A stretch of DNA of 34,784 nt from an uncultured Clostridia bacterium (GTDB taxonomy: Bacteria; Bacillota; Clostridia; Oscillospirales; Ruminococcaceae). Below are positions 4,939 through 34,691 of this stretch, piece after piece (the first letter of the stretch is position 1; each line of letters begins with the position of its first letter). The stretch covers positions 1-34,784 of the forward strand of contig CAMERU010000005.1 in the NCBI GenBank assembly GCA_945935925.1, in the 5' to 3' direction. The notes beneath the pieces were generated by a model. That model saw only the letters and a program-made list of their open reading frames with translations, did not search any database and was not told where the DNA came from. The translations under genes were made by a program, and so were the position numbers.

Positions 4939-6759
4939 TTACACCGCGCCGCAGCCGATATAATACTTCGCCTGCTCGGCGAACATTTTCGCGTATATGC
5001 CGCCTTGCAGCGAAACAAGCTCGTCATGCGTGCCGCTCTCCTTAATGGTGTCCTCCGCGAACACCACGATACGGTCGCAGAATTTACAGCTGGATAGTCT
5101 GTGCGAGATGTACACGGCAGTCTTTCCGCCGACGAGCGTGTTGAACTGGCGGTATATCTCGTATTCGGCAACGGGGTCAAGCGCCGCAGTAGGCTCGTCA
5201 AGTATGACAACGGGCGCGTTACGGTACAGTGCCCTCGCAATGGCTGTCTTTTGCCGCTGACCGCCCGAAAGGTCGGTGCCGTTCTCGTCAAAGCTTTTGT
5301 AAAGCATGGTGTCAAGCCCGTCGGGCAGCTTCTGCGCGTCCTCCCACAACCCCGCTAGCCGCAGCACGTTTTCAAGCTCCTTATCGTCGGCGCGTTCCCC
5401 GAACGCGATGTTTTCACGCAGGCTGAACGCGAACAGCTGAAAATCCTGAAATACCACCGCAAACAAACGGCGGTACTCCTCGTCGGAGTATTCCTTTATG
5501 TTCACTCCGTCGACAAGTATCTCGCCCTCGGTGACGTCGTAAAGCCTGCACAGCAGCTTTATGAACGTTGTTTTTCCCGCTCCGTTAAGTCCGACTATCG
5601 ACAGGTGCTCGCCAGATTTTATGGTGAGGTTAATGTCGCGCAGCACAGGCTTGTCGGTGCGCGGGTATTTAAATCCGACATGGCGGAACTCGATAGTATG
5701 CTCTCCCGCTGCGACCGCCCTATTACCCTTTTCCATAGCGGCGGGATAGCGCATAAATTCGATATAGCGGTGCGCATAGGCGCATTTCTGATTTACGCCC
5801 TGAATGCCGCTGACAACGCCGTAAAGGCTCCAGTAGAGCGTCCCCGCGGCGCTCGCGCACATTGAGAAGTCGCCGACGGTGATAGCACCCGTTACCGCGA
5901 GATAGCCTATATAGAAATAGCTTATCCCATCGCGCAGAGCGTTCGCCGCGTCCATTACCCAGCTGTTGCGGCGCTGCTTCTCGGCGGTTTCGTGCCATAC
6001 GCCTATCTGCTCGTCGGAGTAATACTTCGCCTTGTCACCCATCATTTTGCCGCTGTTGTAAAGGCGGATATCCTTGCCGAGCCTGAAATCTGCCAGCTGA
6101 TAGAAAACATATCCGAAAACACGGTTGCTTTTCGCAAGCTTTAAGAAGCTCTCGCGGTCTATCTTGTTATTTTTCGCGTTGAATATCGTGATAACGACAA
6201 TCGCCGCCGCCTGCACAGGAAGAAGCCACGGGCAGGTCATCAGTATTATAACCGAAACGCCCAGCAGTGCCGCCACATTGTTGACAAGCCCGAACACCGC
6301 GCCCAGCACGCCCACGATACCGCCGCTGTACCAGCTCATTCCCTCCTGCGCCTTTTCCAGCGCGTCGAGAGCCTCGGGGTTTTCGGTGTGTTCATAGTCC
6401 ATTTTCATGGAGTGATCGGCAAGCTGAATGTCCACATACTCCGCGAACCACTCACCGTGCACCGATTCGAGCTGATCCGCGCCGTTCTTCAGAACGCTTG
6501 TCAGAAGCTGAACGCCGATATATATTCCCGCGAACATAACCGCGTTCGCAAGGTGCTGCGCAGCCGAGCCGCCGCTGATGACAAGCACCAGCTCGTCAAT
6601 GATGAGCTTTGCCATTATCGCGTTCTGCATTTTATCGGCAAACTCCGCGATAAATCTCATTATATAGACAAGGAAAACGGAGCGGCGCTCCCTCCACGCG
6701 GTCGCGAACACGAATTTCAGCGTTTCCCGCGTTATCCCCTTTTGTTTCTGCTCAGACAT
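4939..6759 (-). CDS. ABC transporter, permease/ATP-binding half-transporter
   Basis: MSEQKQKGITRETLKF... with TM domain, Walker A GLNGAGKTT, signature DLSGGQRQK, Walker B PVVILDEPTAALD. SD GGAGGCGG before the ATG at 6759; the listed ORF start at 6888 is too far upstream. Confidence 0.93.
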   Translation of the reverse strand: MSEQKQKGITRETLKFVFATAWRERRSVFLVYIMRFIAEFADKMQNAIMAKLIIDELVLVISGGSAAQHLANAVMFAGIYIGVQLLTSVLKNGADQLESVHGEWFAEYVDIQLADHSMKMDYEHTENPEALDALEKAQEGMSWYSGGIVGVLGAVFGLVNNVAALLGVSVIILMTCPWLLPVQAAAIVVITIFNAKNNKIDRESFLKLAKSNRVFGYVFYQLADFRLGKDIRLYNSGKMMGDKAKYYSDEQIGVWHETAEKQRRNSWVMDAANALRDGISYFYIGYLAVTGAITVGDFSMCASAAGTLYWSLYGVVSGIQGVNQKCAYAHRYIEFMRYPAAMEKGNRAVAAGEHTIEFRHVGFKYPRTDKPVLRDINLTIKSGEHLSIVGLNGAGKTTFIKLLCRLYDVTEGEILVDGVNIKEYSDEEYRRLFAVVFQDFQLFAFSLRENIAFGERADDKELENVLRLAGLWEDAQKLPDGLDTMLYKSFDENGTDLSGGQRQKTAIARALYRNAPVVILDEPTAALDPVAEYEIYRQFNTLVGGKTAVYISHRLSSCKFCDRIVVFAEDTIKESGTHDELVSLQGGIYAKMFAEQAKYYIGCGAV

Positions 6760-8593
6760 TTGCCGCCTCCTTTCCCTCAACATAATACTGCGCCTGCAGG
6801 CGGAACATCTCCGCGTATGCGCCGTTTTTCGCCATAAGGCTGTCGTGCGTGCCGTACTCGCACAGCTCGCCGTCCCTGAACATCGCAATGCTGCTGCAGA
6901 ACTGCGTGGAGCTCAGCCTGTGGCTGATGTAAACGGCTGTCTTATTGCCGATAAGCTTGTCGAAATCGTTGTAAAGCCTGCTTTCCGCAAGGGCGTCGAG
7001 AGCCGCCGTCGGCTCGTCAAGCACTGCCACGGGAGCGTCCTTGTACAGCGCCCTAGCAAGCGCCAGCTTCTGCTTTTCGCCGCCCGAAAGGTCAACTCCG
7101 TCGTCGTGAATGACCTTGAGTATCTCGGTGTCAACTCCGCGCGGCAGTTCCGCAAGCTTGTCGCCGAAGCCCGCCGCTGCAAGGCATTCCTCCGCGCGCT
7201 TTCTGTCCGTTTCCTCGGGCGACTGCATCGAAACATTCTCCGCAAGCGGGAACGCGAACAGCTCGACGTCCTGAAATACCGGCGCGAATATCCCGTAATA
7301 GCTCTCCCTGCTGTATTCGCGGATATTGACGCCGTTGAGGAGTATCTCTCCCTCGGTCGGCTCGTACAGCCGCAACAGCAGCTTTATAAACGTAGACTTT
7401 CCCGCGCCGTTAAGCCCGACAACGGCGAGCCGCTCCCCTGCCCTCAGCCGTATCGACAGGTTTTTCAGCGCGTAATTCTCCGCCTTTGGGTATTTAAAGG
7501 ATACGTTGCGGAACTCAAATTCGTAGCTGTCAAGCCTTGGCACAGGCTTGCCGCTGTCGGGACTGCCGCCGTCTATATCCATGAAACTGCGGAAGTCATC
7601 CACCTGCCTGCTTTTCTGAAGCAGTGAGCTCACACAGTTAAGAAGATTATTTATATGCTGAAACAGCGTTCCCGCGCTTGCCAGATAAAGGCTGAAATTA
7701 CCCAGCGACAGCCCGTCGTTCACCACCGACCATATAAGCCAGCCGTAAACAGAGCACAGCGCCGCCGCCCACATCACCGCCGATAAACCCGACGCAAGAA
7801 ACCACATTTTTGCATTGGTTTTCTGCGCGGAAAGGCGCTCCTTTTTAAGCTCGCGGTATTTTTCCACAAGCCATTCGCGCAGCCCGAAAAGCCGTATATC
7901 CTTTGCGGGCGTGAAGTCGGTTATCTGCCGCCTCATATAATTATCCCGCCGCCACCACGGCGCAAGCGGATCCCAAACCTTTTTCTTGCAGGAAGCGTTC
8001 GTGCGGTCGGTTATGACAAAATTAACAACGGCAAGAACGGTCATGATAAGCACTATGCGGATATCCAGCGTTCCCATAATGCACAGCCCGACAACGGTTA
8101 CCGCAAGCGACATCGCAAGATCCACCATGCCCCTTGACATCCCCTCAACGCCCGCGTCGTTGCTGTTGCAGGCGTTGTTTGCCTTTTGATAGCAGTCCAT
8201 GACGTCGGGGTTTTCGAGGTGCTCGAAATCAATGCTCATGACCTTTGCGTTTTTCTCCGCCATTAAACCGAACCTCACCGCGACAAACCGCCACCATGCC
8301 TCGCTGTGATAATATGTGTTCAGCATGGTGGAAACAAGCTGTAAAAGCGTGAACGCGCCCACAAGCCACAGCAGCGCCTCCCAGCCCGCCTCGCCCGTTA
8401 TCATGTCAATGACGAATTTCGTGATGAATGTCCACAGGTAATTCATCATCGGCGCGCAGACTATCCCTATCGGAATGAGCACAAGCAGCCGCTCAGAATA
8501 CCGCCGCATTCCCGAAAAGATCCAGCGGATATTGCTCCGCAGACCGTAGTCACGGTGAAGCGGATTCTGCTTCTCATCGGTTTTCTTTTTCAT
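6752..8593 (-). CDS. ABC transporter, permease/ATP-binding half-transporter (partner)
   Basis: MKKKTDEKQNPLHRDYGLRSNIRWIFSGM... with Walker A GLNGAGKST, signature DLSGGEKQK, Walker B PVAVLDEPTAALD. SD AAAGGAGG upstream; its 3' end overlaps the start of the next half-transporter. Confidence 0.93.
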   Translation of the reverse strand: MKKKTDEKQNPLHRDYGLRSNIRWIFSGMRRYSERLLVLIPIGIVCAPMMNYLWTFITKFVIDMITGEAGWEALLWLVGAFTLLQLVSTMLNTYYHSEAWWRFVAVRFGLMAEKNAKVMSIDFEHLENPDVMDCYQKANNACNSNDAGVEGMSRGMVDLAMSLAVTVVGLCIMGTLDIRIVLIMTVLAVVNFVITDRTNASCKKKVWDPLAPWWRRDNYMRRQITDFTPAKDIRLFGLREWLVEKYRELKKERLSAQKTNAKMWFLASGLSAVMWAAALCSVYGWLIWSVVNDGLSLGNFSLYLASAGTLFQHINNLLNCVSSLLQKSRQVDDFRSFMDIDGGSPDSGKPVPRLDSYEFEFRNVSFKYPKAENYALKNLSIRLRAGERLAVVGLNGAGKSTFIKLLLRLYEPTEGEILLNGVNIREYSRESYYGIFAPVFQDVELFAFPLAENVSMQSPEETDRKRAEECLAAAGFGDKLAELPRGVDTEILKVIHDDGVDLSGGEKQKLALARALYKDAPVAVLDEPTAALDALAESRLYNDFDKLIGNKTAVYISHRLSSTQFCSSIAMFRDGELCEYGTHDSLMAKNGAYAEMFRLQAQYYVEGKEAANV

Positions 8594-29181: not shown

Positions 29182-29210
29182 TTGAAAATTCCGCCGTTTC
29201 ATGCTATAAT
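29182..29210 (+). promoter_or_regulatory. Sigma-A promoter for the GSF-repeat gene
   Basis: TTGAAA-N17-TATAAT with extended -10 TGC. Confidence 0.75.
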
Positions 29211-29236
29211 AGAGTTATATTATTGGGGGTGACGTG

Positions 29237-30004
29237 ATGGAATGTGCGCTTTGGCTTAACAGGCGTAAAATATACCATGCCGATGAGATATCCGATAACC
29301 TTGATATCGCGTCGCTGAGGGGTTATTTTCTCGGGGGAAGCCTTGAAGAATGGCTCCGCGACAACGGCGGCGAAATGTACGCCGATCGCCTCGCAGAGCT
29401 GGACGCAGCCGACCCCGACCTTAATGGGAAGCTGGCACGCATATTCCGCAAAAACAGCCCGCCCGTGCCCGCCGTATCCCTCGGCGGCGCACAGCAGCCT
29501 GTCCCCGCACGCGGAGCGGTATTCGGGCTTTCGCAGAGGCAGAGCGCTTACGGCGGCTCGTTCGGCTCTTTCGGCTCGTTTGGGTCATTCCGAGGGTCGT
29601 TCCGCGGTGGTTCGTTCCGTCATGGAAGCTTTATTAACGAATGGGAGTGGGAATACGTCCTCGGAAGCTTCAAAAGAGGTTCGTTCCGCGCGGGGTCATT
29701 CGGCGGCTCTTTCGGCTCGCATGAGTGGGAATGGGAATATGCCCTCGGAAGCTTCGGAAAGGGCTCGTTCCGCGCGGGGTCATTCCGCTCGGGATCATTC
29801 ACAGGCGGCTCGTTCAGGCTCGGGTCATTCAGAGCGCCGATCTCCGTATATGGCTCGGGCAGACCGTTCGGGCTGTCCCCGAAAAACACGAACGGAAGCT
29901 TCCCCGCATTTGTCCTGTCCTCCGACGAATACGACAGGATAATGCTCGAAACGCTGCGAAAGTGCCCGCTGGATCGCTTCGGCTACGGTATCCATATCAT
30001 ATAA
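29237..30004 (+). CDS. GSF-repeat low-complexity protein of unknown function with conserved-looking N-terminal domain
   Basis: SD GGGGGTGA then MECALWLNRRKIYHADEISDNLDIASLRGYFLGGSLEEWLRDNGGEMYADRLAELDAADPDLNGKLARIF. Repeat tract GGSFGSFGSFGSFRGSFRGGSFRHGSF...EWEWEYVLGSFKRGSFRAGSF...EWEWEYALGSFGKGSFRAGSFRSGSFTGGSFRLGSF. Wobble changes between repeats support real coding. Confidence 0.85.
   Translation: MECALWLNRRKIYHADEISDNLDIASLRGYFLGGSLEEWLRDNGGEMYADRLAELDAADPDLNGKLARIFRKNSPPVPAVSLGGAQQPVPARGAVFGLSQRQSAYGGSFGSFGSFGSFRGSFRGGSFRHGSFINEWEWEYVLGSFKRGSFRAGSFGGSFGSHEWEWEYALGSFGKGSFRAGSFRSGSFTGGSFRLGSFRAPISVYGSGRPFGLSPKNTNGSFPAFVLSSDEYDRIMLETLRKCPLDRFGYGIHII
29552..29830 (+). repeat. Coding tandem repeat tract (GSF motifs; two 84-bp EWEWEY-GSF units)
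   Basis: 17 GSF tripeptides in this tract; units starting at 29639 and 29723 share EWEWEYxLGSFxxGSFRAGSF with an 84-bp (28-aa) offset. Confidence 0.9.
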
Positions 30005-30005
30005 C

Positions 30006-30824
30006 ATGAATGCTATCCATATCGTATCAACTGCGCCGTTTTTCGCAAAGGGCGGCAAGACTTACCGCATGGAGGATTTCGACCTCTGGTGCACCGCGCT
30101 GTCAGCCCTGTGCTGGAGAAGATACAACGGCAGAATAACGCTCTGCGCCGACAGCCGTGCCGCACGGTATTTCACCGAGGCGGGACTTGCGCCGCTCTGG
30201 GACGGCATAAACGTCTGCATCCCCGACGACCTCGATGGGATAGACCCCGAGATGTTCTGGGCTGGCGGAAAGCTGCTTGCGCTGAAAGAAACGCCTGCGC
30301 CCGTTGTAATGCTTGACACCGACTTTATCGTCTGGAAACCGCTCCCGTTCGGGCAGGAAATAATCGCCGCCCACTGCGAGGAGCTCTACCCCGACATATA
30401 CCCGCCGCTCGGGTACTTCCGAACAAAAAACCATATCATTCCCGCGTTCAGCGAAAGCGTTCTCCCACTGAACACGGCTTTTCTCTATATACCCGACGAG
30501 GACTTCAAAGGCTTCTACACCTCGCAGGCGATAGCGTTCATGAAGTCCGCCGAAAAAAGCGGCGACCGCCTGTGCAACATGGTTTTCGCCGAGCAGAGAA
30601 TGGCGGCGATGTGCGCCGACTACACGGGCACCCCCGTAAAGACGCTCCTCGACAAGGATCACCTCTTTTTCCCGCAGGACTGCTTCACCCACCTCTGGGG
30701 CGCAAAGCAGGCAATGCGCGACGACCCCGTGCTCCGCGCCGACCTTGTTGGTAAATTCAGAGCGCGGCTGATGTCCGACTTTCCCGAATATTCTTTCATC
30801 GCCGATATTATCTGCGCGCTGTGA
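30006..30824 (+). CDS. Glycosyltransferase-like protein (DUF6734-like)
   Basis: MNAIHIVSTAPFFAKGGKTYRMEDFDLWCTALSALCWRRYNGRITLCADSRAARYFTEAGLAPLWDGINV...FWAGGKLLALKETPAPVVMLDTDFIVWKPL: GT-A-like layout with DTDF (DxD). Starts 1 nt after the GSF gene stop. Confidence 0.72.
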   Translation: MNAIHIVSTAPFFAKGGKTYRMEDFDLWCTALSALCWRRYNGRITLCADSRAARYFTEAGLAPLWDGINVCIPDDLDGIDPEMFWAGGKLLALKETPAPVVMLDTDFIVWKPLPFGQEIIAAHCEELYPDIYPPLGYFRTKNHIIPAFSESVLPLNTAFLYIPDEDFKGFYTSQAIAFMKSAEKSGDRLCNMVFAEQRMAAMCADYTGTPVKTLLDKDHLFFPQDCFTHLWGAKQAMRDDPVLRADLVGKFRARLMSDFPEYSFIADIICAL

Positions 30825-30913
30825 CGGAATATTCCCCCGTTATTTCCGTATAATACGGGAAAAGGTTTTTTATGGGGACGCCCGCGCGGCGTTTCCCTGA
30901 AGGGGGAATTTAT

Positions 30914-32326: not shown

Positions 32327-33409
32327 ATGAAAACTGTTACCTACCAGTGCCCGAACTGCTACGCGGCGCTGGAATACGATAATGCGAGCGGGGAATTCGC
32401 CTGCAAGTACTGCGGGGGGACTTTCTCCGAGGAGCAGATACATTCCCTCTTTAAGGAAAACGAGGAAATGCCGCTCGACATCGACGAGCCCGAACTCAAC
32501 GAGCAGCAGAAGGAGGACGAGGAGTTTTCAGGGCAGAGCGCGCTGTATTCCTGCCCTAACTGCGGCGCGGGCGTTATCTGCGATTCGCTCACCGCGTCGA
32601 CAAGATGTCATTTCTGTCACACTCCCGTTATCCTCACGGGGCGTTTGTCGGGCGAATACAAGCCCGATATGATAATCCCGTTCTGCACCACGAGGGAGCT
32701 TGCCGAAAGCTCGTTCAGGGAGTACATAAAAGGCAAATTCCTCCTTCCGAAGGGTTTTCGCAGCGAGGCGCAGATACGGAACATTGCGCCGCTGTATGTC
32801 CCCTACTGGCTTAAAAGCGCGCTCACTACCGCGCACCTTGTCGCTGAGGGGCGGATCATAAGAACATGGCGCTCGGGCGACACGCGCTATACGAATACAA
32901 AGGTATTCAACGTCAGGCGCTCGGCGGAGATGGCTTTCGTGCGCGTTCCCTGCGACGGGTCTAAGCGCATAGACGACAGCCTTATGGAGAGCATAGAGCC
33001 GTTCAACTATGACGGGCTGAAGCCGTTCTCGATGTCCTATCTTTCCGGCTGCGCCGCAGAGAAATACGACGTTGCAAAGGAGGAAGCGGGTCAGCGCATA
33101 GGTCAGCGCATACGCGCGGGAGCGGAGGAGGAACTTAAAAAGAGCATTATGGGCTATTCCTCGGTGGACGTGCTCAATTTCGCGCTGAATTACGAAAAGC
33201 AGCAGTATATCTACGCGCTCATGCCCGTTTGGTTCCTTAACTACACCTACGGCGGCAAGGATTACCCCTTTGTTATGAACGGTCAGACGGGGCAGATGTT
33301 CGGTATCCTGCCCATAAGCAAGCTCAGGGCGTTCCTTTTCGGCGCGGGGATATTCCTGCTGGCAACAGCTGCCGCCGCTCTTATAGGAGGTGTCTGCGTT
33401 GTTTTATAA
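32327..33409 (+). CDS. TFIIB-type zinc-ribbon membrane protein
   Basis: Two CxxC...CxxC ribbons (CPNCYAALEYDNASGEFACKYCGG; CPNCGAGVICDSLTASTRCHFCHTP) and a C-terminal TM segment. Confidence 0.82.
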   Translation: MKTVTYQCPNCYAALEYDNASGEFACKYCGGTFSEEQIHSLFKENEEMPLDIDEPELNEQQKEDEEFSGQSALYSCPNCGAGVICDSLTASTRCHFCHTPVILTGRLSGEYKPDMIIPFCTTRELAESSFREYIKGKFLLPKGFRSEAQIRNIAPLYVPYWLKSALTTAHLVAEGRIIRTWRSGDTRYTNTKVFNVRRSAEMAFVRVPCDGSKRIDDSLMESIEPFNYDGLKPFSMSYLSGCAAEKYDVAKEEAGQRIGQRIRAGAEEELKKSIMGYSSVDVLNFALNYEKQQYIYALMPVWFLNYTYGGKDYPFVMNGQTGQMFGILPISKLRAFLFGAGIFLLATAAAALIGGVCVVL

Positions 33410-34691
33410 AAGAATAATTTCCCTTGTCATATGCCTGCTTGTTTTCGCGGGGTCATTCACCGCCGCTTATGCGAAAAGTGCGGACGGCTGGCTGAAAGAT
33501 GATCTCGGGCTTTTAACCGAAAGTGATACCAAAACGCTGCGCGCGGAGATACGCAAGACAGCAAAGCAGGCGGGAGTTAATATCGCGGTTTTTGTCTGCG
33601 ACCTTGGGCAGCACACCGACGACAGCGAGCGGCGCGAGTTCGCCGAGGAGATCTGCGAGGTCAATGATTTCGCTGCAACGGGCGGAGCGGTCGTTTTCAT
33701 CATGGACGTTGACCCCGAAACGCTGGATTACTTTGATTACATATACCTTACGGGCAATGCCTACGAGCTTTATCAGCCGCATATAAGCGAAATTTACTCC
33801 GATATGTACGACGCAATGGACGGCGGCGGGCTGTCCGCGGGGTTATCCTCGCTCGTCGGCAGCCTTTACGCCCTCGCGGGCGGCGGCGCGGAAACGGAAA
33901 GCACCGAGTCCGCCGAGCCCGAAAAGCCGCGTTTCAGCGGAGTATTAAGCGACCTTGAGATGAAGTTCTCCTCCGCGCAGCAAAGCGAGCTCACCGAGCT
34001 GCTTAATGAAACAGCGCAGACGATACAGTGCAACGTCGGCGTTGTTATAACAGACGACCTGCGCGGTAAAAGCGACAGGCAGTATGCTGAGAATTTCCTC
34101 GACAACACGTTCGGGGTCGGCAGCAGCTCGATCGTACTGCTTTACAACGACGACCGCTCAAACATGAACTACACCGACTACATCTCCGCAAACGGGCGCG
34201 GAACAGACCTCTATGGTAACCGCATAGATGACATTTTCGACAGGGTATATGCGGGCTCGCTGGGGGTCAAAAAAGACGTTTATCCTGCGGAGGATTATTA
34301 TGAGTCCATAGTATTCTTCTGCCGTTACCTTTCCAATCACACCACTCCCGGCAGCAACAGCAATGCCTATGAGGAGGATTTCAATATTTCGTTCGACAGC
34401 GCGGACATCGACACGGTAGCATATGTTTTCGTTGTGCCATGCGTATTCGGCATTATAGTCGCGTTTGTTGTGACGAGCGTAGTCTGCTCCAAGTACAAGA
34501 AGAAAAAACCGATAAGCGCCGCGGCGTACCTTGCCCGCAGCAGAACGAAATACCTCTTGAGAACAGATGATTTCGTCCGGGAATACACCACCCATGTGCA
34601 CATCAGCTCCTCCTCTTCCGGCGGCGGGCACCGAAGCGGAGGCGGCGGGCACCGAAGCGGCAGAAGCGGAGGCGGCGGCAGACGGCGCTGA
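33390..34691 (+). CDS. TPM-domain-like membrane protein with Ser/Gly/Arg-rich tail
   Basis: Signal peptide, TPM-like WLKDDLGLLTESDTKTLRAEIRKTAKQAGVNIAVFVCDL, second similar region, TM VAYVFVVPCVFGIIVAFVVTSVV, tail HISSSSSGGGHRSGGGGHRSGRSGGGGRRR. Start could be GTG 33390 or TTG 33399. Confidence 0.78.
   Translation: MSALFYKRIISLVICLLVFAGSFTAAYAKSADGWLKDDLGLLTESDTKTLRAEIRKTAKQAGVNIAVFVCDLGQHTDDSERREFAEEICEVNDFAATGGAVVFIMDVDPETLDYFDYIYLTGNAYELYQPHISEIYSDMYDAMDGGGLSAGLSSLVGSLYALAGGGAETESTESAEPEKPRFSGVLSDLEMKFSSAQQSELTELLNETAQTIQCNVGVVITDDLRGKSDRQYAENFLDNTFGVGSSSIVLLYNDDRSNMNYTDYISANGRGTDLYGNRIDDIFDRVYAGSLGVKKDVYPAEDYYESIVFFCRYLSNHTTPGSNSNAYEEDFNISFDSADIDTVAYVFVVPCVFGIIVAFVVTSVVCSKYKKKKPISAAAYLARSRTKYLLRTDDFVREYTTHVHISSSSSGGGHRSGGGGHRSGRSGGGGRRR

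Follow-up and report, generated by a model that had tools for sequence, protein, structure and literature searches.

Comparison with described systems

Glycogenin glucosylates itself on a Tyr residue of the enzyme, and in Maf-type glycosylation of flagellin an adjacent, dedicated cytoplasmic transferase acts on Ser/Thr residues of one protein. In serine-rich repeat adhesins, cytoplasmic O-glycosylation precedes export, and in the serine-rich repeat proteins (SRRPs) Fap1, PsrP and Srr1 the low-complexity Ser acceptor is encoded with its own transferases (GtfA/GtfB plus accessory glycosyltransferases) and is glycosylated in the cytoplasm (PMC7661464). The window analysed here, a stretch of 34,784 nucleotides from an uncultured gut bacterium of the Clostridia, contains two adjacent genes, one for a Gly-Ser-Phe (GSF)-repeat protein, called the acceptor below after its proposed role, and one for a glycosyltransferase (GT)-like enzyme. 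The cytoplasmic glycosylation proposed for this pair most resembles that of the SRRPs, and the structure of pneumococcal GlyE is among the fold neighbours of the enzyme. In contrast to the SRRPs, however, the window acceptor carries neither an N-terminal signal peptide nor a C-terminal cell-wall anchor and has no hydrophobic segment. The pair has one enzyme, its repeats are GS-aromatic pentads, and its C-terminal tail persists where the N-terminal domain is exchanged. In addition, secA2/secY2/Asp and GtfA/GtfB are not among the recurring neighbours identified by clustering and limited Pfam scans. Because the signal peptide and the secretion genes of the SRRPs are absent here, the pair is not a member of the SRRP family.

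With glycogenin and other GT8-type GT-A enzymes (LgtC, LARGE1, UGGT) the enzyme shares a predicted GT-A fold with a DxD motif, but it gives no match to the GT8 profile and its acceptor is a separate repeat protein. The flagellin/Maf system differs in that the pair has no flagellin domain, no flagellar genes alongside and no Maf profile match. None of the described systems tested (SRRP/aSec, glycogenin, pentapeptide repeat, RiPP, phage and defence) accounts for the pair.

Arrangement of the two genes

The acceptor gene occupies positions 29237-30004 of the forward strand and encodes 255 amino acids from an ATG at 29237; a GTG at 29234, ahead of this ATG, is also open. The GSF-repeat reading frame of the preliminary description, with EWEWEY at residues 135 and 163, is real; relatives retain it undisrupted, and none of the homologs identified is of known function. 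The enzyme gene (30006-30824, forward strand) begins 1 nt past the acceptor stop and encodes a soluble protein of 272 amino acids.

A putative promoter, TTGAAA-17-TATAAT with an extended -10 element (TG), lies at 29182-29210 (forward strand; 11 of 12 consensus matches), and a terminator-like hairpin with a T-run at 30843-30871 (forward strand) would close the two-gene unit. As consensus matches, not transcription evidence, these elements appear to place the acceptor and GT genes in a compact two-gene unit. Of 75 loci scanned, 52 have the same promoter arrangement ahead of the acceptor gene, and a promoter score of 10.5 is reached by 40 of 73 loci, compared with 1.9% of shuffles. The acceptor might be synthesized in the mother cell, whose proteins need no signal peptide, as a glycoprotein of the spore coat or exosporium, and Spo0A is present in nine of ten host genomes tested; the promoter, however, is near-consensus for the vegetative (sigma-A) type and is conserved across loci, and we regard this explanation as very unlikely.

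The Gly-Ser-aromatic tract

The tract spans residues 107-198 (29555-29830, forward strand) and contains 17 of the 18 GSF motifs of the acceptor, the 18th being at residue 220, whereas 5000 shuffles of the acceptor never produced more than 5 (mean, 0.47). Two acidic-aromatic EWEWEY blocks are located at residues 135-140 (29639-29656) and 163-168 (29723-29740), both on the forward strand, and a block of this kind is found in 57 of 74 family members. The 17 motifs and the two blocks had been recognized earlier, but the separation of 0-3 residues between motifs is not arbitrary and is of a pentad type. A distance of five residues separates [GSTN]S[FYW] units in 37% of cases family-wide, as against 8% when the units are shuffled, so the repeat can be described as a degenerate pentad of the form [G/S/T]-S-[F/Y]-x-x. 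Nine different codon triplets are used for the GSF units in the acceptor gene, which indicates that the motif is maintained at the protein level and rules out recent DNA-level slippage as the origin of the tract.

The five-residue spacing resembles that of pentapeptide-repeat proteins (Pentapeptide_2, PF01469), but the window protein and most members of the family are unmatched by this profile, and the tract is predicted to be disordered (AlphaFold2 pLDDT ~40) and not a beta-helix. The cut-off of 26.4 bits is passed by a few members, for example with 39.3 and 36.7 bits, and with 4 of 38 members matching Pfam a canonical pentapeptide beta-helix is not supported. No PDB structure match was found for the tract. 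Neither a signal nor a transmembrane segment is present in the acceptor, as had been noted before; its maximal 19-residue hydropathy is 0.59, compared with 2.79 for a DUF6709 membrane protein used as control, and 1 of 72 relatives has a hydrophobic segment above the threshold used.

The acceptor gene is conserved and under purifying selection. The 13 close pairs compared have dN/dS values of 0.04-0.20 in the N-terminal domain, 0.09-0.30 in the tract and 0.05-0.13 in the GT; in the tail the value is 0-0.13 over the ten pairs that have a synonymous change in it. Every acceptor segment stays below 0.31. Within the tract, the same pairs differ at 5.6% of Gly, 6.5% of Ser, 10.7% of aromatic and 23% of spacer residues, so that the aromatic residue is nearly as conserved as Ser. 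Because GS-aromatic units occur 700 times, as against 4 GT-aromatic and 14 GA-aromatic units, it is Ser itself that is kept, and this conservation suggests that Ser may be the residue that is modified.

A disordered tract in which F/Y residues abound among G/S spacers and E-W/Y blocks could also belong to an aromatic low-complexity scaffold that self-associates into a condensate or fibre through F/Y/W stickers, the tail recruiting the enzyme as a client that acts on something else or whose sugars only tune assembly. The conservation of the aromatic positions, at which changes are mainly Y to F, is consistent with such a scaffold. Stickers, however, do not require that Ser be kept over Thr or Ala. 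Moreover, the partner at locus L154 has the same tail and the same pairing with the enzyme, and yet its tract is almost entirely (GS)n and lacks aromatics, so that the aromatic residues cannot be essential; the partner at L155 is minimal. A scaffold is therefore considered an unlikely explanation, and modification of the tract Ser residues is preferred.

The exchangeable N-terminal domain and the conserved tail

The N-terminal domain (residues 1-71; 29237-29449, forward strand) is modelled with high confidence (AlphaFold2 pLDDT ~96) and matches neither a Pfam family nor a PDB structure. A search of 299 genomes from this family with the N-terminal 66 amino acids as query gave homologs in 12. 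The close homologs are all built alike: the N-terminal domain is followed by a GS[F/Y] tract, most have an acidic-aromatic block (EWEWE or EYEYE), and the C-terminus resembles PL(N/D)RFGYGIHxI. At ten loci of N-domain homologs, the next gene downstream is a homolog of the one at 30006-30824 of the window. The preliminary description had suggested looking for this domain in front of other repeat cores; in other genera (L010, L012, L013 and L014), the same kind of domain heads Sel1-repeat proteins and an SH3-domain membrane protein.

The N-terminal regions of distant partners of the enzyme differ, and most are of the GILAMDPxxYREIDGVVFDxDSYARHC type; the partners at L156-L158 have another N-terminal domain, that at L154 has a third, and that at L155 has none. 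The emphasis originally placed on the N-terminal domain was misplaced, because it also heads Sel1-repeat and SH3 proteins and is replaced or missing in other-genus partners, and a role as the functional key is ruled out. The N-terminal domain is thus the swappable part, and the tract, the tail and the enzyme are the constant ones.

The C-terminus, described at first as short and non-repetitive, is not a plain end but the most conserved part of the family. It comprises, at 29921-30001 (forward strand), a predicted helix (residues 229-242) and the near-invariant tail CPLDRFGYGIHII, and the AlphaFold2 model of the acceptor has a confident N-terminal domain, a disordered tract and a C-terminal helix preceding the tail. 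The tail consensus is GYG[I/L]x[L/I][I/V], in which G249, Y250 and G251 are invariant; the family alignment used for tail and spacing has 55 rows, with one short tail entered by hand, which left the picture unchanged. Variants such as GYGVHII, LGYGLDLI and HGYGIHRI were recognized by eye. Of the 10,955 further ORFs with 60 codons or more in all loci retrieved, a single one ends in this pattern, and the tail is retained alongside unrelated N-terminal domains. This conservation points to the tail as a candidate docking site for the enzyme, and in the reading we prefer the tract and tail together would form a portable substrate module.

The downstream enzyme

The enzyme matches PF20508 (DUF6734) with 28.9 bits (cut-off, 27), and this profile, the only one to match, is found in 51 of 52 relatives (E up to 0.1), while the GT8 (Glyco_transf_8) profile matches 0 of the 52. 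Its AlphaFold2 model has a pLDDT of 94, and its Foldseek neighbours in the PDB are GT-A enzymes, mostly of GT8 type (LARGE1, LgtC, glycogenin, UGGT and GlyE) and including protein-glycosylating ones, at a modest similarity (E ~1e-4, TM 0.34-0.51, identity 9-17%). The DxD motif (D104-T-D106; 30315-30323, forward strand) is the expected donor/metal site, and an H-x-W-G-x-K motif occupies residues 229-234 (30690-30707, forward strand); D104, D106, N156, H229, W231, G232 and K234 are invariant in 52 enzyme sequences. Equivalent motifs are seen in distant GTs, in a listing pre-filtered on two of these motifs. The enzyme thus looks like a sugar transferase, with a predicted GT-A fold and a DxD motif. 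No paper on DUF6734, DUF6709 or GSF/GSY repeats of this kind was found in the literature searched, and the two-gene unit is previously undescribed.

Pairing, distribution and gene neighbours

Named genomes were searched with an alignment of the 30006-30824 gene, and the best 80 of 208 candidate loci were kept; these are related to one another and are therefore not 80 independent observations. They come from Clostridia MAGs, save a few with probably wrong genus labels; L073 (titled Bacteroides sp.) and L082 (Roseburia sp.) group with Ruminiclostridium-type loci. An upstream, same-strand repeat protein with the tail is found in all 80 of these best 80 of 208 loci (74 by pattern and 6 by eye); two of them, L027 and L096, are truncated at contig ends, and L093 has a short ORF. 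In the more distant set, taken from other genera and families of the order and leaving out a 46-aa fragment in G944 (L159), an upstream protein bearing a Ser-rich tract and the tail is found in 31 of 33 intact loci. A Ser-repeat partner lies just upstream on the same strand in 111 of 113 intact GT loci of Oscillospiraceae-type Clostridia (the best 80 of 208 plus the 33 distant ones), and the two-gene unit occurs in at least two families of the order. The exchange of the N-terminal domain between genera is a stronger argument than the counts for the best 80 of 208 loci. GT relatives at L153 (8095-8967) and L190 (4225-5082) have no obvious repeat partner nearby, so the enzyme can occur by itself or with a more remote partner. 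At L153, an ORF at 6645-7061, ~1 kb upstream of the GT, holds GGGYGLSLI near, not at, its C-terminus, which may be chance.

In the genus of the window, GT and acceptor are each present in 42 of 43 genomes (27 of 27 high-quality genomes), the GT once per genome, and the sole genome without the GT, which is 83% complete, also has no acceptor. The alignment also detects GT relatives outside this genus, both within the family and in further families of the order; in the family, most of the remaining genera have no GT. A phage, plasmid or defence origin was rejected, with no PHROGs or PADLOC match and no occurrence among the phages and plasmids searched. The acceptor might instead serve, like glycogenin, as the protein on which the enzyme primes synthesis of a storage polysaccharide, as its single-copy, genus-wide presence and the glycogenins among the nearest folds of the enzyme could suggest. 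The acceptor, however, is a separate protein with many sites and not a self-glucosylating enzyme, no polysaccharide-synthesis gene recurs alongside, and most other genera of the family have no such pair, all of which makes a primer distinctly unlikely.

Within the best 80 of 208 loci, acceptor and GT are within ~105 nt of each other in 53, often with a 4-nt overlap, and in the other 27 the gap is filled by at least one DUF6709 gene for a predicted membrane protein (for example, L015:8006-9311, L017:10206-10868 and L018:10448-11750). In three of ten genus-mate genomes tested, DUF6709 is found there and nowhere else in the genome; the genome of the window has none. A gene for a protein with a PolyA_pol head (CCA-adding-like) immediately precedes the acceptor gene in 22 of the best 80 of 208 loci, in several genera (including L064, L065, L067, L075, L083, L019, L021 and L022). 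The DUF6709, TtcA-like, PolyA_pol-like, Sir2 and ScpA/B-like neighbours are each clade-specific, and conserved gene context was set aside as a clue; only acceptor and GT recur across all clades in the clustering and the limited set of Pfam scans. Near the two-gene unit, a TPM-domain protein encoded at 33390-34688 of the window has a low-complexity tail, with a Ser/Gly/His/Arg-rich end (SSSSGGGHRSGGGGHRSGRSGGGGRRR).

A variable core between conserved ends, with a possible tailoring enzyme adjoining, would also be expected of a RiPP or glycocin precursor from which a bioactive peptide is exported. Such a precursor is nevertheless extremely improbable here, since no exporter, protease or immunity gene recurs alongside, the pair is universal in the genus and gives no phage or plasmid matches, the supposed leader is swappable and not a known one, and there is no NCBIfam match. 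The genus-wide presence and the conserved vegetative-type promoter suggest a housekeeping product and not a toxin or mobile element.

Proposed model

In the model that we consider probable, the two genes form a bicistronic, chromosomal, cytoplasmic protein-modification pair, in which the GT docks on the tail and transfers sugar to Ser residues of the tract. The acceptor and its dedicated GT-A-fold transferase would be made together in the cytoplasm. The transferase encoded at 30006 would then bind the near-invariant tail of its partner, GYG[I/L]x[L/I][I/V], and, from the tail, would move sugar onto the numerous serines of the flexible [G/T/S]-S-[F/Y] tract by O-glycosylation; the glycosylated product would remain in the cytosol.

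This model draws on several observations: the two genes are almost always paired, tract Ser/Gly and the tail are conserved, the N-terminal domain can be swapped, the enzyme has a predicted GT-A fold and a DxD motif, and the acceptor has no signal or transmembrane segment. From these, the 29237 partner would be the acceptor and its product cytosolic, and we infer likewise the reaction, donor, processivity and cellular role. Among the suggestions of the preliminary description was a precursor or repeat protein that the neighbour at 30006 modifies or glycosylates; this is now the best-supported reading, in part through the GT-A-fold neighbour and the near-invariable pairing, while its chemistry is that of the model. 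A broader and more tentative possibility is an order-wide, tag-directed cytoplasmic glycosylation, in which the short C-terminal tail tag and the Gly/Ser tract would mark otherwise unrelated proteins for glycosylation at multiple Ser residues by one dedicated transferase and would yield an intracellular bottlebrush-like glycoprotein of a kind undescribed in bacteria.

If the model is correct, DUF6734 would gain both a function and a substrate, and the enzyme and its tag would constitute a compact, portable pair that could serve as a protein-glycosylation tool. Many gut Clostridia would then make an undescribed, single-copy cytoplasmic glycoprotein that is conserved across the genus.
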